Source of the DNA: Actinomycetota bacterium
GTDB taxonomy: Bacteria; Actinomycetota; Nitriliruptoria; Nitriliruptorales; Nitriliruptoraceae
Reading direction: 5' to 3'
DNA length: 41,474 nucleotides
Assembly (NCBI GenBank): GCA_019348115.1
Contig: JAHWKB010000003.1
Span: 1 to 41,474 of the forward strand
Both the position numbers and the translations under genes were made by a program. Shown one piece after another: positions 12,170 to 20,562 of this stretch. A model generated the notes under the pieces. The model saw only the letters and a list, made by a program, of their open reading frames with translations, was not told the DNA's origin and did no database searches. The stretch's first letter is position 1, and each line of letters begins with the position of its first letter.

Positions 12170-13831
12170 TCAGCAGCGCGAGGCGAGCCCGAGGAAGGAC
12201 CCGACGCTCCGCAGGGCGCCGGCGAAGCCGGACGCGCACGTCTCCGCCGGCGTGGCGTCGTCCGTCGTGGCGCCGTCGTCGTAGCCGAGGGCGTCGCCCC
12301 AGATCTCGTCGTTCGCGTACGGGTCCCCCACGGTCGGGCCGGCGATCTGTCGGATCACCAGGGGGAGCGAGACGCCGCCCCCCTGACGGGTGTCCGACAC
12401 GGAGATGTAGACGTTGCCCTCCCGATCGATGGCGTTGGCGAAGTAGTCCCCGAGTCGCCGGTCGATGGCCCGCGCCTGGCAGAAGGTCCCGCCGGTGCAG
12501 ATGGTGCCGGTATGGACGCTGTCGTGGGAGGCCCGGACCGGCGTGCTCGGTGGCGACCAGACGGTGGTGGCGGGCTTCTTCGGACCCTTGGCCCGGGTCT
12601 CACAGCGCTCGATCTGGGAGGCCATGACGTACCAGTCGCCGCGGGCGTTCTGCGGCTCGTTGCCGGCCACGGGGCCGTCGTGCTGGAGCCACACGGCCAC
12701 GGCGCCGTGCTCCCCAGCGGCGATCCAGGGCCAGAAGGCCGTGCCCTCGCCGCGGTCGAGCTTCACCGGTTCCGTCCACGTCTCCCCGCGGTCGCTCGAC
12801 ATGGCCAGGTGGATCCCCGGCTCGCGGAGGACGCGGCCGTCATCCGCGACGGTGCCGTCGTCGTCCCACACGACGTAGAGGTTGCCCCACGGGTCGATGT
12901 CGATCGTCGGGCCGATCGACGACTTGCGGTTGTAGTGCTCGGCGATGACGGGCGGGTCCTCGGGGTTCGGCGCGGTCGTGGTCCCGTCCCGGTTCAGGAA
13001 CCCGACCTCGGGCGGGGTCTGCTCCCGGGCGTCGGGTGCGATCCAGAGCGTCAGGCGGTCGCGCTCGGAGTGGAGCTCGTACAGGCGGCCGTCGGTCTTG
13101 TCGATCTCGATGTCGGAGGACTGCTGGCCGCCCATCGGCTGCGGCGCCGAGAACGTGACCCCGCCGTCGGTCGACTTGTACAGCTCGTGCGTGCCGACCG
13201 ATCCCGTCACGGCGTTGCCCGACGACGTCGACCCACCACCGAAGGTGTTGCCCACGAACCAGAGCACGTTCTCCTCGTCCGCCTCCATCCACTGGCGGTC
13301 GGTGAGGGTGATCTCGGCCAGGCTCTGCAGGGTGTAGCTGCGTCCCGCGTCGGACGATCTCGAGATCGCGATGTTCGCGAGGTTGATCTCCGAGATGTAG
13401 ACGTTGCCCGCCTTGTCGATCGCGAACTCCGGGTCGGAGAAACCGGAGTTCGGCAGCCCCGACGTCGGGTCGACGGTGCTGATCGGGGTCCGCGGCACGA
13501 AGTCCCAGCGGATCCCGCCGTCCTCGGAGCGGTACTGGTAGGTCTGCCCCTCGTAGTTCTCGACGAAGGCCGAGGTCGTGCCGTCAGCGGCCGCGGGCGT
13601 GTAGAAGTGGGTCGTGCCGGCGTGGCTGCCCCACAGGAGCCCGCCGTCGGGGTGCGTCGTCACGATCGGCTCGCCGCCGGCCCGCTCGGTGTCGATGTAG
13701 TCGCTCGTGAACAGCATCTGCTCGGTCGGTCCCGGGCACGGGACCTGCTCGGCGACGGCCGTGCCGTTGGTCGCGACCAGGGTGGCGGCCACCGCGGCGA
13801 CGGCGGAGACGGCGAGGGTTCGACGTGGCAC
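12170..13831 (-). CDS. Secreted BNR/sialidase-like (beta-propeller) protein without LPXTG
   Basis: GTG start at 13831 giving a signal peptide (PRRTLAVSAVAAVAATLVATNGTAVA), repeated S-D-G-G/Asp-box-like motifs (SEDGG, SSDAGRS, STDGGVTF, SSDRGETW). Paralogous to the CDS at 17286-19316. Confidence 0.8.
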   Translation of the reverse strand: MPRRTLAVSAVAAVAATLVATNGTAVAEQVPCPGPTEQMLFTSDYIDTERAGGEPIVTTHPDGGLLWGSHAGTTHFYTPAAADGTTSAFVENYEGQTYQYRSEDGGIRWDFVPRTPISTVDPTSGLPNSGFSDPEFAIDKAGNVYISEINLANIAISRSSDAGRSYTLQSLAEITLTDRQWMEADEENVLWFVGNTFGGGSTSSGNAVTGSVGTHELYKSTDGGVTFSAPQPMGGQQSSDIEIDKTDGRLYELHSERDRLTLWIAPDAREQTPPEVGFLNRDGTTTAPNPEDPPVIAEHYNRKSSIGPTIDIDPWGNLYVVWDDDGTVADDGRVLREPGIHLAMSSDRGETWTEPVKLDRGEGTAFWPWIAAGEHGAVAVWLQHDGPVAGNEPQNARGDWYVMASQIERCETRAKGPKKPATTVWSPPSTPVRASHDSVHTGTICTGGTFCQARAIDRRLGDYFANAIDREGNVYISVSDTRQGGGVSLPLVIRQIAGPTVGDPYANDEIWGDALGYDDGATTDDATPAETCASGFAGALRSVGSFLGLASRC

Positions 13832-13906
13832 GGGGGCTCCTCGGGGAAGCGGTCCCGGCAGGCTTCGCCGCCGGGGGCGGGGTCTCCTGCCCCTACCCTC
13901 ACGTCC

Positions 13907-14461
13907 GTGGATGAGCGCGCAGGTCCCCGGAGCCGTCCCCGGCGTCGGTCGGCGGGCGTCCTCGTGGCGCTCGCCGTGGCCGCGTGCGGCGACGCGGGGG
14001 GGACCACGCCGGCGGCGTCGCCCGCCGACCTGGCCGCTCTCCCGCCGGTCCTGCAGAGCCCTGGCGCCATCGACCCGGCGCTGCTCCAGCCCCTCCGCGG
14101 CCTGGGGCCGTGCGACGTCCACCCCAACGCCATCGACCTCGAGCCGATCGACGGGCTCGTCCTCCCCCCCGACGCGGTCGTGACCGAGCGCTCGGACGAC
14201 GGGCCGCTCACGACCGTCCGCGGCTACGTCCCGCTGACTCCCGTGCAGATCCGGGTCGTCTACCAGCGCGACCCCGACCTCCAGATCGTCCAGGTCGAGG
14301 ACGAGGTGCGCGAGTCCGAGACCCTCCTCGACAGCGGCGAGTACCGCCTGTTCGTCAAGGCGCAGGCGGTCTGCGAGCAGGGCTCGGTGTTCCTCGCGGT
14401 GCTCGCGCCCCGTGTCGCCCAGCACAACGTCCCCGCCCCGGCCGGAGGAGGCTCCCCGTGA
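13907..14461 (+). CDS. Putative lipoprotein
   Basis: GTG start, Arg-rich n-region, hydrophobic stretch and lipobox VAAC. Stop overlaps the next start (GTGA). Confidence 0.6.
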   Translation: MDERAGPRSRPRRRSAGVLVALAVAACGDAGGTTPAASPADLAALPPVLQSPGAIDPALLQPLRGLGPCDVHPNAIDLEPIDGLVLPPDAVVTERSDDGPLTTVRGYVPLTPVQIRVVYQRDPDLQIVQVEDEVRESETLLDSGEYRLFVKAQAVCEQGSVFLAVLAPRVAQHNVPAPAGGGSP

Positions 14462-15159
14462 CCGTCGTGTTCGCCATCCGCTGTGCGGACGGGCTCGTGC
14501 TCGCATCCGACACCCAGATCACCCAGAGCGACCGTGGGGTGAGCTTCCCCGCCGCGAAGCTCCACGCCCTCGGCGACCGCGCCGCGTGGGGTGGCAGCGG
14601 GGCCCGGGCCGTGCTCGAGGACGTCGAGAAGGCCTTCGACGCCGGCGCGCCCGAGATCCTCGCCGCCGAGGACATCAGCCGCGAGATCCGCGAGCGGGTC
14701 CGTCCCATCTTCGAGCACCACTACCAGGAGTTCATCGAGGAGATCCCGGGCCACGACAACCCGGACGCCACCCCGGCGGCCTACGTGCTGGCCGCCGGGT
14801 ACGTCCGCGGGGAGCCGTTCATCGTCGAGGTGACCCCCAACAACATCGTCGGCCGGTACGAGGACATCGGCTTCCACGCGATCGGCGGCGGGTCACCCCT
14901 GGCGCAGCAGGCGGGGGCGATGCTGGCGCACTTCCGGATGCTGGAGCGCAGCGTCGATCACGGCGTGGTGGTCGCCGTGCGCGTCCTCGACACCCTCTCC
15001 TCGACCGCCCCGAGCGTGGGGGGCCCCTTCCAGGTCTTCCGGCTCCACCCGGACGGCTCGACGCTGCTGACCGACGGCGACCTCGACGAGGCCCGCCGCC
15101 ACGTCGGGCGCTGGATCGAGCTCGAGAAGGAGGCCCTCGACCGGCTCTTCGACGGCTGA
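14458..15159 (+). CDS. Proteasome beta-subunit-like Ntn hydrolase
   Basis: fMet-TVVFAIRCADGLVLASDTQ...PAAKL: Thr1, Asp17 and Lys33 at proteasome spacing; AIGGGSPLAQQ resembles the proteasome GxGS segment. Confidence 0.75.
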   Translation: MTVVFAIRCADGLVLASDTQITQSDRGVSFPAAKLHALGDRAAWGGSGARAVLEDVEKAFDAGAPEILAAEDISREIRERVRPIFEHHYQEFIEEIPGHDNPDATPAAYVLAAGYVRGEPFIVEVTPNNIVGRYEDIGFHAIGGGSPLAQQAGAMLAHFRMLERSVDHGVVVAVRVLDTLSSTAPSVGGPFQVFRLHPDGSTLLTDGDLDEARRHVGRWIELEKEALDRLFDG

Positions 15160-15195: not shown

Positions 15196-15849
15196 GTGAG
15201 GCTGCCGACGGGACCCGGGAGCCCCCTCCGCCGGAGACGTCCCTTGCGCCACTCGACGACCCGGGTCCACGACCAGCGCTGGACCGACCGCGAGTTCCGT
15301 GCCCTCGTCCGCCCGCTGCAGCCACCGTCGCCCGCGGTCCGGGCCTGGCGGGCCGCTCCGACGGCCGCCAGCGACGTCCGGCTGACCCCGCACCACGACC
15401 GCCGCTCGATCCCCACCGTCGTCGTGGTCGCCGGCTCCCTCGCGTTCGCGCTCACGGGGATCCTCTCGGGCGATGTGGGACTCGCCGTCGCGATGAGCCT
15501 CGCTGGCCTCGCGGCGTGTGCCGTCCTCGGCTCGGACCAGGCCCGCACGTCGCTCACCGTCACCGAGGACGGCCGCGTGGAGGTCGCCAACGGCGTCCAT
15601 CGTCGCATCACGACCGTGCCGGCGGTCGCGGTCGCGCGGATCTCGGTGCCCCGGCGGACGAGGTCACGCTGGGACCCCCGACGCCTCGCCGGCGAGCTGC
15701 TCCTGCACAACGGCGATCGGGTCCCGGTCCGGGCGCTCGCGCACGACCCGTCGCGCCCGGCCGATCTCGCCCGTGCCGTGTACCTCGCCCGCGCTGCCGT
15801 GCAGGCTTGCCAGGACGCCGGCGCCGCCCTGGACACCCGCCGGGTCTGA
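15196..15849 (+). CDS. Membrane protein, two TM segments followed by a PH-like beta-rich domain
   Basis: PTVVVVAGSLAFALTGILSGDVGLAVAMSLAGLAACAVLGS then SLTVTEDGRVEVANGVHRRITTVPAVAVARISVPRR. Confidence 0.55.
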   Translation: MRLPTGPGSPLRRRRPLRHSTTRVHDQRWTDREFRALVRPLQPPSPAVRAWRAAPTAASDVRLTPHHDRRSIPTVVVVAGSLAFALTGILSGDVGLAVAMSLAGLAACAVLGSDQARTSLTVTEDGRVEVANGVHRRITTVPAVAVARISVPRRTRSRWDPRRLAGELLLHNGDRVPVRALAHDPSRPADLARAVYLARAAVQACQDAGAALDTRRV

Positions 15850-15852
15850 CGG

Positions 15853-16764
15853 CTACTGGCCCTCGAGCTCGTCGACCGTGCGCGGCCAGTCGTCCTTCAG
15901 CAGGCGGGACAGGCTGCGGTCGGCGAGGAGCTTGCCGCCGGTCTGGCAGCGCGGGCAGTAGTTGGTCTCGTTGTCCGCGTAGCGGATCCGCTGGACCTGC
16001 GTCCCGCACACCGGGCAGGGCTCGCCGAACTTGCCGTGGACCGCGAAGTCGGGCCGGAACGCCGTGACCTTCTCGGGGAACCCCTCCCCCGTCTCGGCCG
16101 CGAGCCGGTCGACCCACTCGGTCAGCACCTCGACCGTGGCCGCGTGGAGTCTGGCGAGCTCCTCGTCCGTCAGCTGGCCCGTCCGCTTCACCGGCGACAG
16201 CCGTGCGCGGTGCAGGATCTCGTCGCTGAAGGCGTTGCCGATCCCGCTGAAGATGCGCGGGTCGGTGAGCCCGCGCTTCAGGGTCCGGTTCTCCCGCGTC
16301 AGGGCGGCACGGAACGCCTCGGGGTCGGCGTCGAGGGGCTCGATCCCGCCGCGGTCGTGCTCGCGCAGGGCTTCCTCACCGCGGACGAGCGACAGGCTGG
16401 CGCGCTTCTTCGTCCCGGCCTCCGTGAGCACCAGCGTGCCGGCGTCGCCGAAGTCGAAGGCAGCGAGCCCGACCTTGCCCGGGACCTTCGCTCCCGGCTC
16501 GCGCCAGCGCAGACGGCCGGCGATCATGAGGTGGAGGACGGCGAAGACCGTCTCGGGCTCGCTCTCGATGTCGGCGAACTCGAGCACGATGCGCTTGCCG
16601 AGACGCCGGAGGCCGGTCACGACCTCGCCCTCGATCACGGACACCGGGGGGTCGTAGGTCTTCAGGAGCGAGAACCCGGTGATGCGGGCACGTTCGAGCC
16701 GGACCCCCAGGACCCGCGCGCGGAGGGCCCGCAGGTAGTCCTCGATGTCGGGGAGCTCCGGCAC
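15853..16764 (-). CDS. Fpg/Nei-family DNA glycosylase
   Basis: (fM)PELPDIEDYLRAL, RRLGKRIVLEF, SGIGNAFSDEILHRARLSP, zinc finger CPVCG...YCPRCQTGG. GTG start abuts the dciA stop. Confidence 0.88.
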   Translation of the reverse strand: MPELPDIEDYLRALRARVLGVRLERARITGFSLLKTYDPPVSVIEGEVVTGLRRLGKRIVLEFADIESEPETVFAVLHLMIAGRLRWREPGAKVPGKVGLAAFDFGDAGTLVLTEAGTKKRASLSLVRGEEALREHDRGGIEPLDADPEAFRAALTRENRTLKRGLTDPRIFSGIGNAFSDEILHRARLSPVKRTGQLTDEELARLHAATVEVLTEWVDRLAAETGEGFPEKVTAFRPDFAVHGKFGEPCPVCGTQVQRIRYADNETNYCPRCQTGGKLLADRSLSRLLKDDWPRTVDELEGQ

Positions 16765-17289
16765 CTAGTCGTCCGCCTCGCGGGCGGTCGTGCCCTGGAG
16801 CGGACCGACGACGACCGTGACCTGGCGCACCATCCCCTGACCGAGCACGTCGTTGGCCTTCTCGGCGACGTGGGCCAGCATGTACTTGAGCTGCGTCGCC
16901 CACGACGCGTTCTCGGCGCGGACGAGGAGGTTGCCGCTCGCGAGCCGGACCGGCTCGCAGCGGGCAGCGAGGTCCGCGCCGACGATGTCCGTCCAGCGCG
17001 AGAAGATGGTCGCCCCCCGGACGCGGGTGTCCCACCGCTTCCTCGCGACGAAACCCTCGAGGACGTCGCCGAGCGCCTCCGGCCGCTGCATGATCCGCAG
17101 CCGCTCGTCCTCGTCGGCGAGCGTCCAGTCGTCGTCGGTCGGTGGACGCGGGTCGAAGTCCCGACGGGCGGCCCGGCTGCGTTCGGCCGCGGCCTTGGCA
17201 CGCCGGCGCGCGTAGGGGTCCGCACCCCAGCGATCCGCGGCGTTGGCCTGCAGATCGCGGGTGCGGCGGTCCTCCTCGCGCGGGCTCAC
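16765..17289 (-). CDS. dciA: DUF721 / DciA-type protein
   Basis: LGDVLEGFVARKRWDTRVRGATIFSRWTDIVGADLAARCEPVRLASGNLLVRAENASWATQLKYM. GTG at 17289 overlaps the upstream TGA. Confidence 0.8.
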   Translation of the reverse strand: MSPREEDRRTRDLQANAADRWGADPYARRRAKAAAERSRAARRDFDPRPPTDDDWTLADEDERLRIMQRPEALGDVLEGFVARKRWDTRVRGATIFSRWTDIVGADLAARCEPVRLASGNLLVRAENASWATQLKYMLAHVAEKANDVLGQGMVRQVTVVVGPLQGTTAREADD

Positions 17290-19316
17290 ACCTGGCGTCG
17301 CGGCCGACGCGTCAGGCCGAAGGCGATGAGCAGCGCCCCGATGGCGAACGTGGCGGCTCCCCCGCCGGTCGTCGGCAGCGCCGGGCCGGCGTCCGGCTCG
17401 GGTGCCGGCGCCGGGCGCGTCGTCGTCGGCGCCGGTGGCGGAGCCGCCGACAGGTCGGGCCCGCCGACCTGTCGGATGTGCAGCGGCAACGCGACGGCGC
17501 CGCCCTGCCTGGTGTCGGACACGGCGATGTGGATGAGCCCGTCGTTCGCGGCCGCGACCGAGAAGTAGTCCCCGAGCCGGCGGTCGGTCAGGTCCGTCTG
17601 GCAGAGCGTGCCGTGCTGGCAGATGGTCCCGGTGTGGATGGGCTCGCTCGAGGCCCGGGCGACGCGGAAGCCGGCGAACTCCCCGTCGGCGCAGCCCAGG
17701 CCGGTGCTCGTGGTCGCCGTCGCGACGTTCCACTGCACGTCGTCGCCGCCGTCCTCGCCCGGGAGGGTGCTGTCGACGACCTTGTCGCCCTGGAGCCACG
17801 TCACCACGACCTGCCCCGGCGCGCCGACGGCGATCCACGGCCACACATCGGCGTTCGCGTCGGGGTCCACGCGGACGGGGAGCGAGAACGTCTCGCCGTC
17901 CGAAGACGCCGCGTAGTAGATGCCGGCGGGGCGCAGGCCCGATCCGTTGTCGGACCAGGTGACGTAGAGGTTGCCCTCGTCGTCGAGCGCGAGGGTCGGG
18001 TCGATGAGACGCTGGACGCCGGTGAGCCCGACGCCGCTCACGACGGGGATGAGCTCGACGGTGAAGTCGGTCTCCTCCTCACGGATGTTCGGGAACCGGG
18101 CGACGCTGATGTCGCCGGCGCTCGTGACGGAGAGCTCGTAGAGGATGCCGCGGTCGCGGTCGATCCGGATGTCTCCGACCCCGTCGGAGTTCGTGGTCGA
18201 CGCCGCGCCCCAGGTCACGCCGCCGTCGGTGGACTTGGCCATGAAGTGCCCGACGTTCCCGATGGGATCGGCCGGGAAAGACCCGCCACCGAAGCCGTTG
18301 GCGGTCATGTACACCTCGTTCTCGCGGTCGCCCTCCATCCATTGACGGTCCGAGGACGTGAACGCGAACACGTTCTGCAGCCCGTAGGAGCGACCGCCGT
18401 CGGTCGACTTGTACATCGCCACGTTCGCGAGGTTGATCTCGGACGTGTAGACGTTGCCCGCGGCGTCGATCGCGAACTCCGGGTCGCTGAAGCCGGTCGC
18501 CGGGAGCCCCGCGAGCGGGGCGACGTCGCCCTCGCCGGGACCCTGCCGCGGCACGAACGAGAAGTCGACGCCGTCCTCGGACACGTAGCTGTAGGTCTGT
18601 CCCTGGTAGTTCTCGATGAACGCGGCCGTGGTCGGATCCAACGCCGTCGGGGTGTAGAAGTGGGTGGTCCCCGCGTGGCTGCCCCAGAGGAGCTGACCGT
18701 CGGGGTGGACCTCGATCAGCGGCTCCCCGCCGGCGCGGCTCTCGTCGATGTAGGCCATCTCGAACTTCGGCGTGTCCGATGGCGCGGCGCACGGGGTCCC
18801 GCTGGCGGACAGCGGCGACTTCTCGCTGGCCGTGAGGGTGAAGCTGCCCTCGTAGGACTGCGGGACCACACCGGCGAAGGCGCAGGCCGCGACCCGGTAC
18901 GTCCCCGGCTCGGGGTTGCTGAGGCTCGCGGACTCGGGGGCGTCGACGAAGCCCGAGTCGCCGTTGATCACCTCGCCCTCCGGGGTGACGACGGTGACGA
19001 TGACGTCGGTCGTCGCCGCACCCGGGCCGGTGGCAGTGACCGTCGCAACGGCCTGCACGTCCACGGTGTCGTAGGTGCCGGGCGGCACGGTGAGCTCGAT
19101 CGTGTGGCTGTCCGCCGTCGGGGACTCGGCGCACCCCCCGGACTGCTCCGCACCCGGTGGGATGATCCCCGTCCACGTCGTCGAGGCCTCTGCCCCCGGC
19201 TCCCGCGGGGCCGTCATGTCGCTCGAGGCGGGGTCGCTCGCCAGCACCGGCGCGCTGGCCGAGAGGAGGCCGAGGACTACGAAGGTGATCCCCGTGAGGC
19301 TCAAACGGCGGTGCAT
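17286..19316 (-). CDS. Cell-wall-anchored (LPXTG) BNR/sialidase-like protein
   Basis: Signal peptide MHRRLSLTGITFVVLGLLSASAPVLA; Asp-box-like repeats; C-terminal LPTTGGGAATFAIGALLIAFGLTRRPRRQV sorting signal. Confidence 0.82.
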   Translation of the reverse strand: MHRRLSLTGITFVVLGLLSASAPVLASDPASSDMTAPREPGAEASTTWTGIIPPGAEQSGGCAESPTADSHTIELTVPPGTYDTVDVQAVATVTATGPGAATTDVIVTVVTPEGEVINGDSGFVDAPESASLSNPEPGTYRVAACAFAGVVPQSYEGSFTLTASEKSPLSASGTPCAAPSDTPKFEMAYIDESRAGGEPLIEVHPDGQLLWGSHAGTTHFYTPTALDPTTAAFIENYQGQTYSYVSEDGVDFSFVPRQGPGEGDVAPLAGLPATGFSDPEFAIDAAGNVYTSEINLANVAMYKSTDGGRSYGLQNVFAFTSSDRQWMEGDRENEVYMTANGFGGGSFPADPIGNVGHFMAKSTDGGVTWGAASTTNSDGVGDIRIDRDRGILYELSVTSAGDISVARFPNIREEETDFTVELIPVVSGVGLTGVQRLIDPTLALDDEGNLYVTWSDNGSGLRPAGIYYAASSDGETFSLPVRVDPDANADVWPWIAVGAPGQVVVTWLQGDKVVDSTLPGEDGGDDVQWNVATATTSTGLGCADGEFAGFRVARASSEPIHTGTICQHGTLCQTDLTDRRLGDYFSVAAANDGLIHIAVSDTRQGGAVALPLHIRQVGGPDLSAAPPPAPTTTRPAPAPEPDAGPALPTTGGGAATFAIGALLIAFGLTRRPRRQV

Positions 19317-19386
19317 ACGAACTCCGAACCAGGTGCGGACCCGGCGACGGTAGCGCCCGCCTCGTCCCGAGGGCCCGCAACGCGGA

Positions 19387-20562
19387 TCACGCCGCACCGC
19401 CGGCGGCCGCGGGCCGTGTGTGGACGCTCGAGATGCCGCCCTCGATGCGGACGTCGAGTCGGGCGCCCTCGAGCGGGACGTCGTCCTCGACCGCCGCGGT
19501 CACGAGGACCTGGTCCCAGCGCCCGCAGGCGTCGGCGAGCCGCCCCCGACGGGTCTCGTCGAGCTCGGCGAAGACGTCGTCCAAGAGCACGATCGGCCGG
19601 TCGCCGACCTCGGCGAGGACCTCGTAGGTCGACAGCTTGAGCGCCAGCGCCAGGGACCAGGCCTCCCCGTGGCTGGAGTGGCTCCGCGCCGGCAGCTCGC
19701 CGATGTCGAGGTCGAGGTCGTCGCGGTGCGGTCCCACCAGCGTCACCGCCCGGTGCCGCTCGTCGCCGGCGACCTCCGCCAGGGCCGTCCGGACGGCCGT
19801 CTCGATCGGCTCACGTTCGGGCACGCCCTCGTCCGGGTCCCCGACGACGTCGAGGCCGGCGGAGGACCGGTAGGTGAGCCGGATGCGCTCGGGTCGGTCG
19901 GCGAGGTCCCGGTACGAGCGGTCCACGTGACCGGCGAGCGCGTGGACCGCCGCGATCCGGGCGGCGATGACCGACGTCGCGTGGGTCACGAGCTGCTCGG
20001 TCCAGACGTCGAGCGTGGCCGCCGCGGCATCCCGGGCGGACGGACCCAGGTGCCGGGCCTGCTTCAGGAGGTTGTTGCGCTGCTTCAGCACGCGGTCGTA
20101 CTCGCTCCTCGCCGCGGCGTAGGCCGGTCGGCGCTGCGCGAGCAGGTCGTCGAGGAAGCGCCGCCGCTCCCCCGGGTCGCCGCGGACGATGGCCACGTCC
20201 TCCGGCGCGAACAGGACCACCCGCAGCACCCCGAGCGCGTCGCTGCTGCGCCGGACGTCCTGGCCGTCGACCCGGGTGCGGGTCCGCCGTGACGTGCCCA
20301 CCTCGAGCTCGAGGGTGCGGCGCCGCCCCTCGTCGGTGCGGAGCTCGAGCCGGATCACCCCGAGCTCCTCGCCCGCCCGCACGAGCGGCTGGTCCCCGCT
20401 GACGCGGTGCGAGCCACCCGTCGCGGCCCGGTGGACGGCTTCGAGGAGGTTGGTCTTGCCCTGGGCGTTGGGGCCCACGAGCACCGTCACGCCGGCGTCC
20501 AGGCCGACGGCCGTGGCGGCGTACGACCGCACGTCCTGCAGTTCGATCCTGGTGAGCAGCAC
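19387..20562 (-). CDS. recF: DNA replication/repair protein RecF
   Basis: LLTRIELQDVRSYA, VGPNAQGKTNLLEAVH (Walker A), HGEAWSLALALKLS, VLLDDVFAELD. Confidence 0.97.
   Translation of the reverse strand: MLLTRIELQDVRSYAATAVGLDAGVTVLVGPNAQGKTNLLEAVHRAATGGSHRVSGDQPLVRAGEELGVIRLELRTDEGRRRTLELEVGTSRRTRTRVDGQDVRRSSDALGVLRVVLFAPEDVAIVRGDPGERRRFLDDLLAQRRPAYAAARSEYDRVLKQRNNLLKQARHLGPSARDAAAATLDVWTEQLVTHATSVIAARIAAVHALAGHVDRSYRDLADRPERIRLTYRSSAGLDVVGDPDEGVPEREPIETAVRTALAEVAGDERHRAVTLVGPHRDDLDLDIGELPARSHSSHGEAWSLALALKLSTYEVLAEVGDRPIVLLDDVFAELDETRRGRLADACGRWDQVLVTAAVEDDVPLEGARLDVRIEGGISSVHTRPAAAGGAA

Follow-up and report, generated by a model that had tools for sequence, protein, structure and literature searches.

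The window analyzed here, the whole stretch of 41,474 nucleotides, carries a gene encoding a proteasome-beta-like Ntn hydrolase, located between gyrB on one side and a DUF721-like gene and recF on the other (gene names were read off the translations). The gene, its start region and the open reading frame that overlaps it are arranged as follows.

13907-14461, forward strand: lipoprotein-like open reading frame, sharing 4 bases (GTGA) with the start of the Ntn gene; its own start codon is uncertain
14443-14452, forward strand: stretch holding the Shine-Dalgarno-like sequence GGAGGAGG, read directly
14450-14457, forward strand: spacer from the Shine-Dalgarno sequence to the GTG, read directly
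14458-15159, forward strand: coding sequence of the proteasome-beta-like Ntn hydrolase, 233 amino acids, GTG start, stop codon included
15073-15150, forward strand: C-terminal helix H5, residues 206-231 (26 residues), from the AlphaFold2 model

Translation of the forward frame at 14458-15159 gives 233 codons with no internal stop; the product is (V/M)TVVFAIRCADGLVLASD...SFPAAK, and the protein reads MTVVFAIRCADGLVLASD...FPAAK. The start codon is considered sound because a strong Shine-Dalgarno sequence lies just 5' of the GTG and because six homologues (L005, L006, L008, L009, L010 and L022) have an in-frame stop 5' of their MTV start with no ATG, GTG or TTG between the two. As these six proteins have no other start available after the upstream stop, the absence of a propeptide, claimed in the original prediction, holds as a trait of the family and is not the product of a mis-called start.

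The gene neighborhood of the Ntn gene was explored. None of prcA, mpa, pup or hslU adjoins it, and no neighbor recurs within 7 kb of the close homologues once synteny inside the genus is set aside. The expectation that the gene stands outside any HslU-like or Anbu-like operon was thus confirmed, and a functional partner identified through the neighborhood was rejected for lack of any recurrence beyond the same genus. Outside the genus, the overlapping lipoprotein-like gene was not found. Downstream, an unannotated gene at 15196-15849 (+) encodes a protein of ~217 amino acids that is probably membrane-bound, with 66% identity in the congener and no Pfam match. It is followed by a formamidopyrimidine-DNA glycosylase-like gene (Fpg/Nei) at 15853-16764 (-), convergent with the Ntn cluster and 91% identical in the congener. 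Two BNR-repeat-like paralogues, probably secreted, flank the cluster between gyrB and recF at 12170-14506 (-), whose start is uncertain, and at 17286-19397 (-); they share 46% identity over 493 amino acids. A different arrangement was seen in five distant homologues, L035, L036, L046, L047 and L048 (genomes G066, G088, G158, G315 and G241, respectively), where in five out of five cases a conserved gene of ~145-150 amino acids lies directly upstream of the Ntn gene or overlaps it. One of these upstream genes weakly matches SocA_Panacea (PF13274, E=0.011, below the cut-off). The two genes form a two-gene unit in the distant relatives that the close clade does not have.

The window protein was aligned with 18 close homologues (53-90% identity), which come from the congener, the same family and class, Acidimicrobiales, Euzebyales, Nitriliruptorales, Frankiaceae and Mycobacterium. 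Five distant homologues (23-28% identity) complete a set of 24 proteins. In a phylum-wide sample, matches were present in 17 out of 398 genomes, with 12 of the 17 belonging to the close clade, the window's genome included. The carriers include isolated Mycobacterium strains and metagenome-assembled genomes. The close clade was seen in Actinomycetota, the one phylum searched in depth; other phyla were covered by a single exact-peptide contig scan sensitive to close relatives only. Searches of phages, plasmids and viral contigs gave no match to it, and a phage- or plasmid-borne gene was rejected on that basis; a role as a defense gene was rejected as no PADLOC match of weight was obtained. In the phylogenetic tree, whose backbone is unresolved, the copies of G048 (L022) and G138 (L039) grouped with 99/99 support even if the two genomes belong to different classes, which suggests some horizontal transfer within the close clade.

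Comparison of the window gene with the same-genus copy gave 12, 12 and 57 differences at the three codon positions (dN 0.058, dS 0.382, dN/dS about 0.15), a pattern that points to a functional gene under strong purifying selection. Among the 19 proteins of the close set, 52 columns are invariant, including the family-specific Trp43, Arg49, His87-Tyr88 and His139. The Pfam Proteasome model PF00227 matched the protein with E=1e-6 and 29 bits (cut-off 22.4). This score, the homologues in other actinobacterial orders, the invariant residues and the codon-position pattern together show that the match is not due to chance.

Scores against the curated models of known subunits were low, with 22.5 bits versus a cut-off of 191.9 for PrcB (TIGR03690), 17.9 versus 224 for the NCBIfam archaeal beta subunit, and 12.1 versus 137 for HslV (NF003964), the latter a weak N-terminal match. 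The profile check proposed with the original prediction therefore places the protein in neither PrcB nor HslV. When a sequence profile was compared with the PDB, the nearest chains were archaeal beta subunits (E about 1e-13), and the alpha subunit of M. jannaschii followed at 1.3e-10; the protein is thus similar to both alpha and beta subunits. AlphaFold2, run on a 19-sequence alignment, gave a best model with pLDDT 86.8 and pTM 0.86, the five models spanning 36 to 87. The modeled chain has the beta-subunit fold with helices H1-H4 (H1 at residues 50-69, H2 at 73-92), no large insertion, and little order in the loop formed by residues 94-105, at the place of the proteasome pore loop. In Foldseek, the matches to mycobacterial PrcB (TM 0.73) and to Anbu (TM 0.74) were about equally good, with probability 1.00 and 17-20% identity. 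The PF00227 score, the residues Thr1, Asp17, Lys33 and Gly47, and the modeled beta-subunit fold place the protein in the proteasome-like Ntn family.

The codons of the predicted active site are given below, with residues counted after the initiator Met.

14461-14463, forward strand: Thr1, predicted to be the N-terminal nucleophile once Met is removed
14509-14511, forward strand: Asp17
14557-14559, forward strand: Lys33
14599-14601, forward strand: Gly47, oxyanion hole
14605-14607, forward strand: Arg49, invariant, predicted S1 pocket
14887-14889, forward strand: codon 144, Gly in place of Ser129
15007-15018, forward strand: codons 184-187, Ala (Asp166 position) through Val (Ser169 position)

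Thr1, Asp17, Lys33 and the oxyanion-hole residue Gly47 stand in the same register as in 20S beta subunits and do not vary among the 24 aligned proteins. The translation thus bears out the predicted spacing of Thr1, Asp17 and Lys33. The wider claim of an exact 20S beta active site stands for this first triad, but the second triad, Ser129-Asp166-Ser169, is not kept. In the 20S proteasome the second triad protonates the Thr1 amine, and its replacement has consequences, as D166A stops archaeal autolysis and D166N reduces yeast activity (PMC4792962). With the register taken from the M. jannaschii beta subunit, to which the profile alignment is ungapped in that region, the Asp166 position is Ser, Ala or Gln and the Ser169 position is Val in 19 out of 19 close members. 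Ser129 is retained by 17 of these proteins, the window protein and its congener having Gly instead.

The loss of Asp166 and Ser169 across the clade, with Ser129 replaced by Gly in the genus, suggests that the Ntn hydrolase may be a poor peptidase. Such a loss would not by itself imply inactivity, since a protein made without a propeptide needs no autolysis, but efficient hydrolysis of peptides cannot be taken for granted. One could go further and see a protein with little or no catalytic activity that has a structural or binding role, as the window protein is altered at all three positions of the second triad. This is improbable as none of the 24 proteins deviates at Thr1, Asp17, Lys33 or Gly47, Ser129 is retained by most relatives, and the gene appears to be under strong purifying selection. 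The combination of lost hydrolysis-aiding residues (Asp166 and Ser169) and an invariant Thr1/Asp17/Lys33 could also fit a specialized Thr-nucleophile acyl transferase, ligase or single-substrate amidase, connectase-like, rather than a degrading protease. Connectase itself provides a precedent (PMC8665760), and 52 invariant columns in 19 proteins would suggest a defined substrate. However, the S3/S4 helical insertion of connectase is absent, H1-H2 are present and no partner gene hints at a substrate, leaving this a rather unlikely alternative to a threonine peptidase.

The predicted S1 pocket, its register taken from sequence and not from coordinates, consists of Ile20-Ala31-Gly45-Arg49. Gly45 and Arg49 are invariant in the close clade. 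The pocket is thus predicted to be basic in the close clade alone, and the inference of an acidic P1 residue is limited to that clade because Arg49 is absent from the distant homologues. The pocket of Anbu-2 is I20-A29-R46-R50, and its authors proposed that it is tuned for acidic P1 residues (PMC5666114). Given the invariant Arg49, a distinct substrate is plausible.

The absence of prcA, mpa and pup next to the gene, as originally predicted, holds at the locus but not in the genome as a whole. On host contig C391, the first 97 bases match the C-terminal end of PrcB and are followed by prcA; pup is found on contig C117; and contig C135 carries a Mpa/ARC-like fragment (442 bits versus a cut-off of 504.75, model positions 4-306). 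The host therefore has a canonical Pup-proteasome elsewhere, and the Ntn gene is an extra paralogue. A canonical subunit with a missed partner was rejected, as the host has its own prcB tail and prcA and the NCBIfam scores are far below the cut-offs. Ten searched close-clade carriers have prcA-like and prcB-like matches side by side, and three have no such pair in the assembly, two of these assemblies being incomplete (71% and 88%). In G138, the third of these and a single contig that is 99% complete, the Ntn gene is the only PF00227 match, and no prcA, no prcB and no Mpa above the cut-off were found. The fact that this near-complete genome carries the Ntn gene without prcBA or an above-cut-off Mpa indicates that the protein seems to be independent of the Pup-proteasome.

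The coexistence of both systems in the host and ten searched relatives, as well as the fold shared with PrcB, might instead reflect an alternative or accessory beta subunit that is mixed into PrcBA rings and so uses Mpa and Pup. We regard this as quite unlikely. Besides the gene content of G138, the Ntn gene never adjoins prcBA, the protein has no propeptide whereas PrcB assembly uses one, and its identity to PrcB is about 20%.

Taken jointly, we favor, with slightly better than even odds (about 0.55), a model where this single-copy, propeptide-less proteasome-like Ntn protein is a homo-oligomeric threonine peptidase working without a dedicated unfoldase, cutting after acidic P1 residues and probably belonging to the Widespread Proteasome Homolog (WPH) family. 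The initiator Met would be removed by methionine aminopeptidase to expose Thr1, as suggested by the MTV start and the precedent of Anbu and BPH, for which Met removal and covalent epoxomicin binding have been shown. Lys33 and Asp17 would then activate Thr1, with Gly47 forming the oxyanion hole. In the model, the chain takes the fold of a beta subunit, with H1-H4 and a long H5 at the C-terminus, and it most likely forms its own homo-oligomer, either a BPH-like double ring or an Anbu-like split ring with coiled-coil dimers. As indicated by G138, neither PrcA nor Mpa would be required. The enzyme would most likely act slowly and selectively, cutting unfolded proteins or peptides after acidic residues with no dedicated unfoldase. 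A point against this is that neither Anbu nor BPH was active on standard substrates in vitro. A more far-reaching proposal is a self-compartmentalizing, unfoldase-free actinobacterial Thr protease that lacks Ser129/Asp166/Ser169, cuts after acidic residues and acts as an additional machine for degradation or processing, either alongside the Pup-proteasome or in its place; we consider it speculative and, as a whole, doubtful.

Almost none of the proteasome relatives catalogued in 2021 has a known function. The close clade offers a concrete starting point for testing a seemingly unfoldase-free proteasome relative, owing to its invariant nucleophile residues, lost second triad, predicted basic S1 pocket and isolated Mycobacterium carriers. 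In the carrier bacteria, proteasome inhibitors might also act on this protein, as a target so far overlooked.

Compared with known systems, the protein is like PrcB in its fold (TM 0.73), its Thr1/Asp17/Lys33/Gly47 and its N-terminal nucleophile, but differs by its score (22.5 versus 191.9 bits), the absence of a propeptide and of an adjacent prcA, the missing Asp166 and Ser169, and the presence of the host's own prcB. It shares a Thr nucleophile and the weak N-terminal match with HslV, but scores 12.1 versus 137 bits, has no hslU nearby and possesses H5, which HslV does not have. Like BPH, it has no propeptide, no unfoldase partner and an acidic-rich pore-loop region; however, BPH is without the C-terminal S12/H5 elements (PMC8665760) and was not among the best sequence-profile matches. 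AAH and PPH, the compact, phage-associated group I proteins, are without H5, whereas the Ntn protein has H5, and no relative was found in phages or viral contigs. Connectase has no H1-H2 and carries an S3-S4 helical insertion, unlike the Ntn model, which has H1-H2 and no large insertion. Anbu also has no propeptide, Thr1 directly after Met and a long C-terminal helix (TM 0.74), and the S1 pocket resembles that of Anbu-2, except that Gly45 replaces Arg46. Identity to Anbu is nevertheless about 17%, Anbu is absent from the best 60 PDB sequence-profile matches, and the frequent but not universal Anbu operon (transglutaminase, ATP-grasp protein and Alpha-E) contrasts with the close homologues, beside which no gene recurs.

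Fuchs, Alva and Lupas described in 2021 22 uncharacterized proteasome-like families for which functional contexts and AAA+ partners were not found (PMC8665760). The prediction of a divergent family therefore stands in that the protein belongs to a conserved clade of its own, but proteasome relatives of this kind are already catalogued and it is not new as a kind. Within that catalogue, WPH (representative WP_040339656.1) resembles both alpha and beta subunits, is predicted to form a C-terminal coiled coil, has members in Actinobacteria and has no co-occurring AAA+ (PMC8665760); a title and abstract search of the papers covered found none on its function. The range of WPH extends to archaea and further bacterial phyla (PMC8665760), whereas the close clade was seen in Actinomycetota, the one phylum searched in depth. 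Compared by description, the window protein is like WPH in being propeptide-less, in its long C-terminal helix, its alpha and beta similarity, its presence in Actinobacteria and the absence of an AAA+ partner or operon. Because of the long C-terminal helix, the dual similarity and the taxonomy, uncharacterized WPH, matched here by its description rather than by WPH sequences, is most likely the best-fitting label for this protein.
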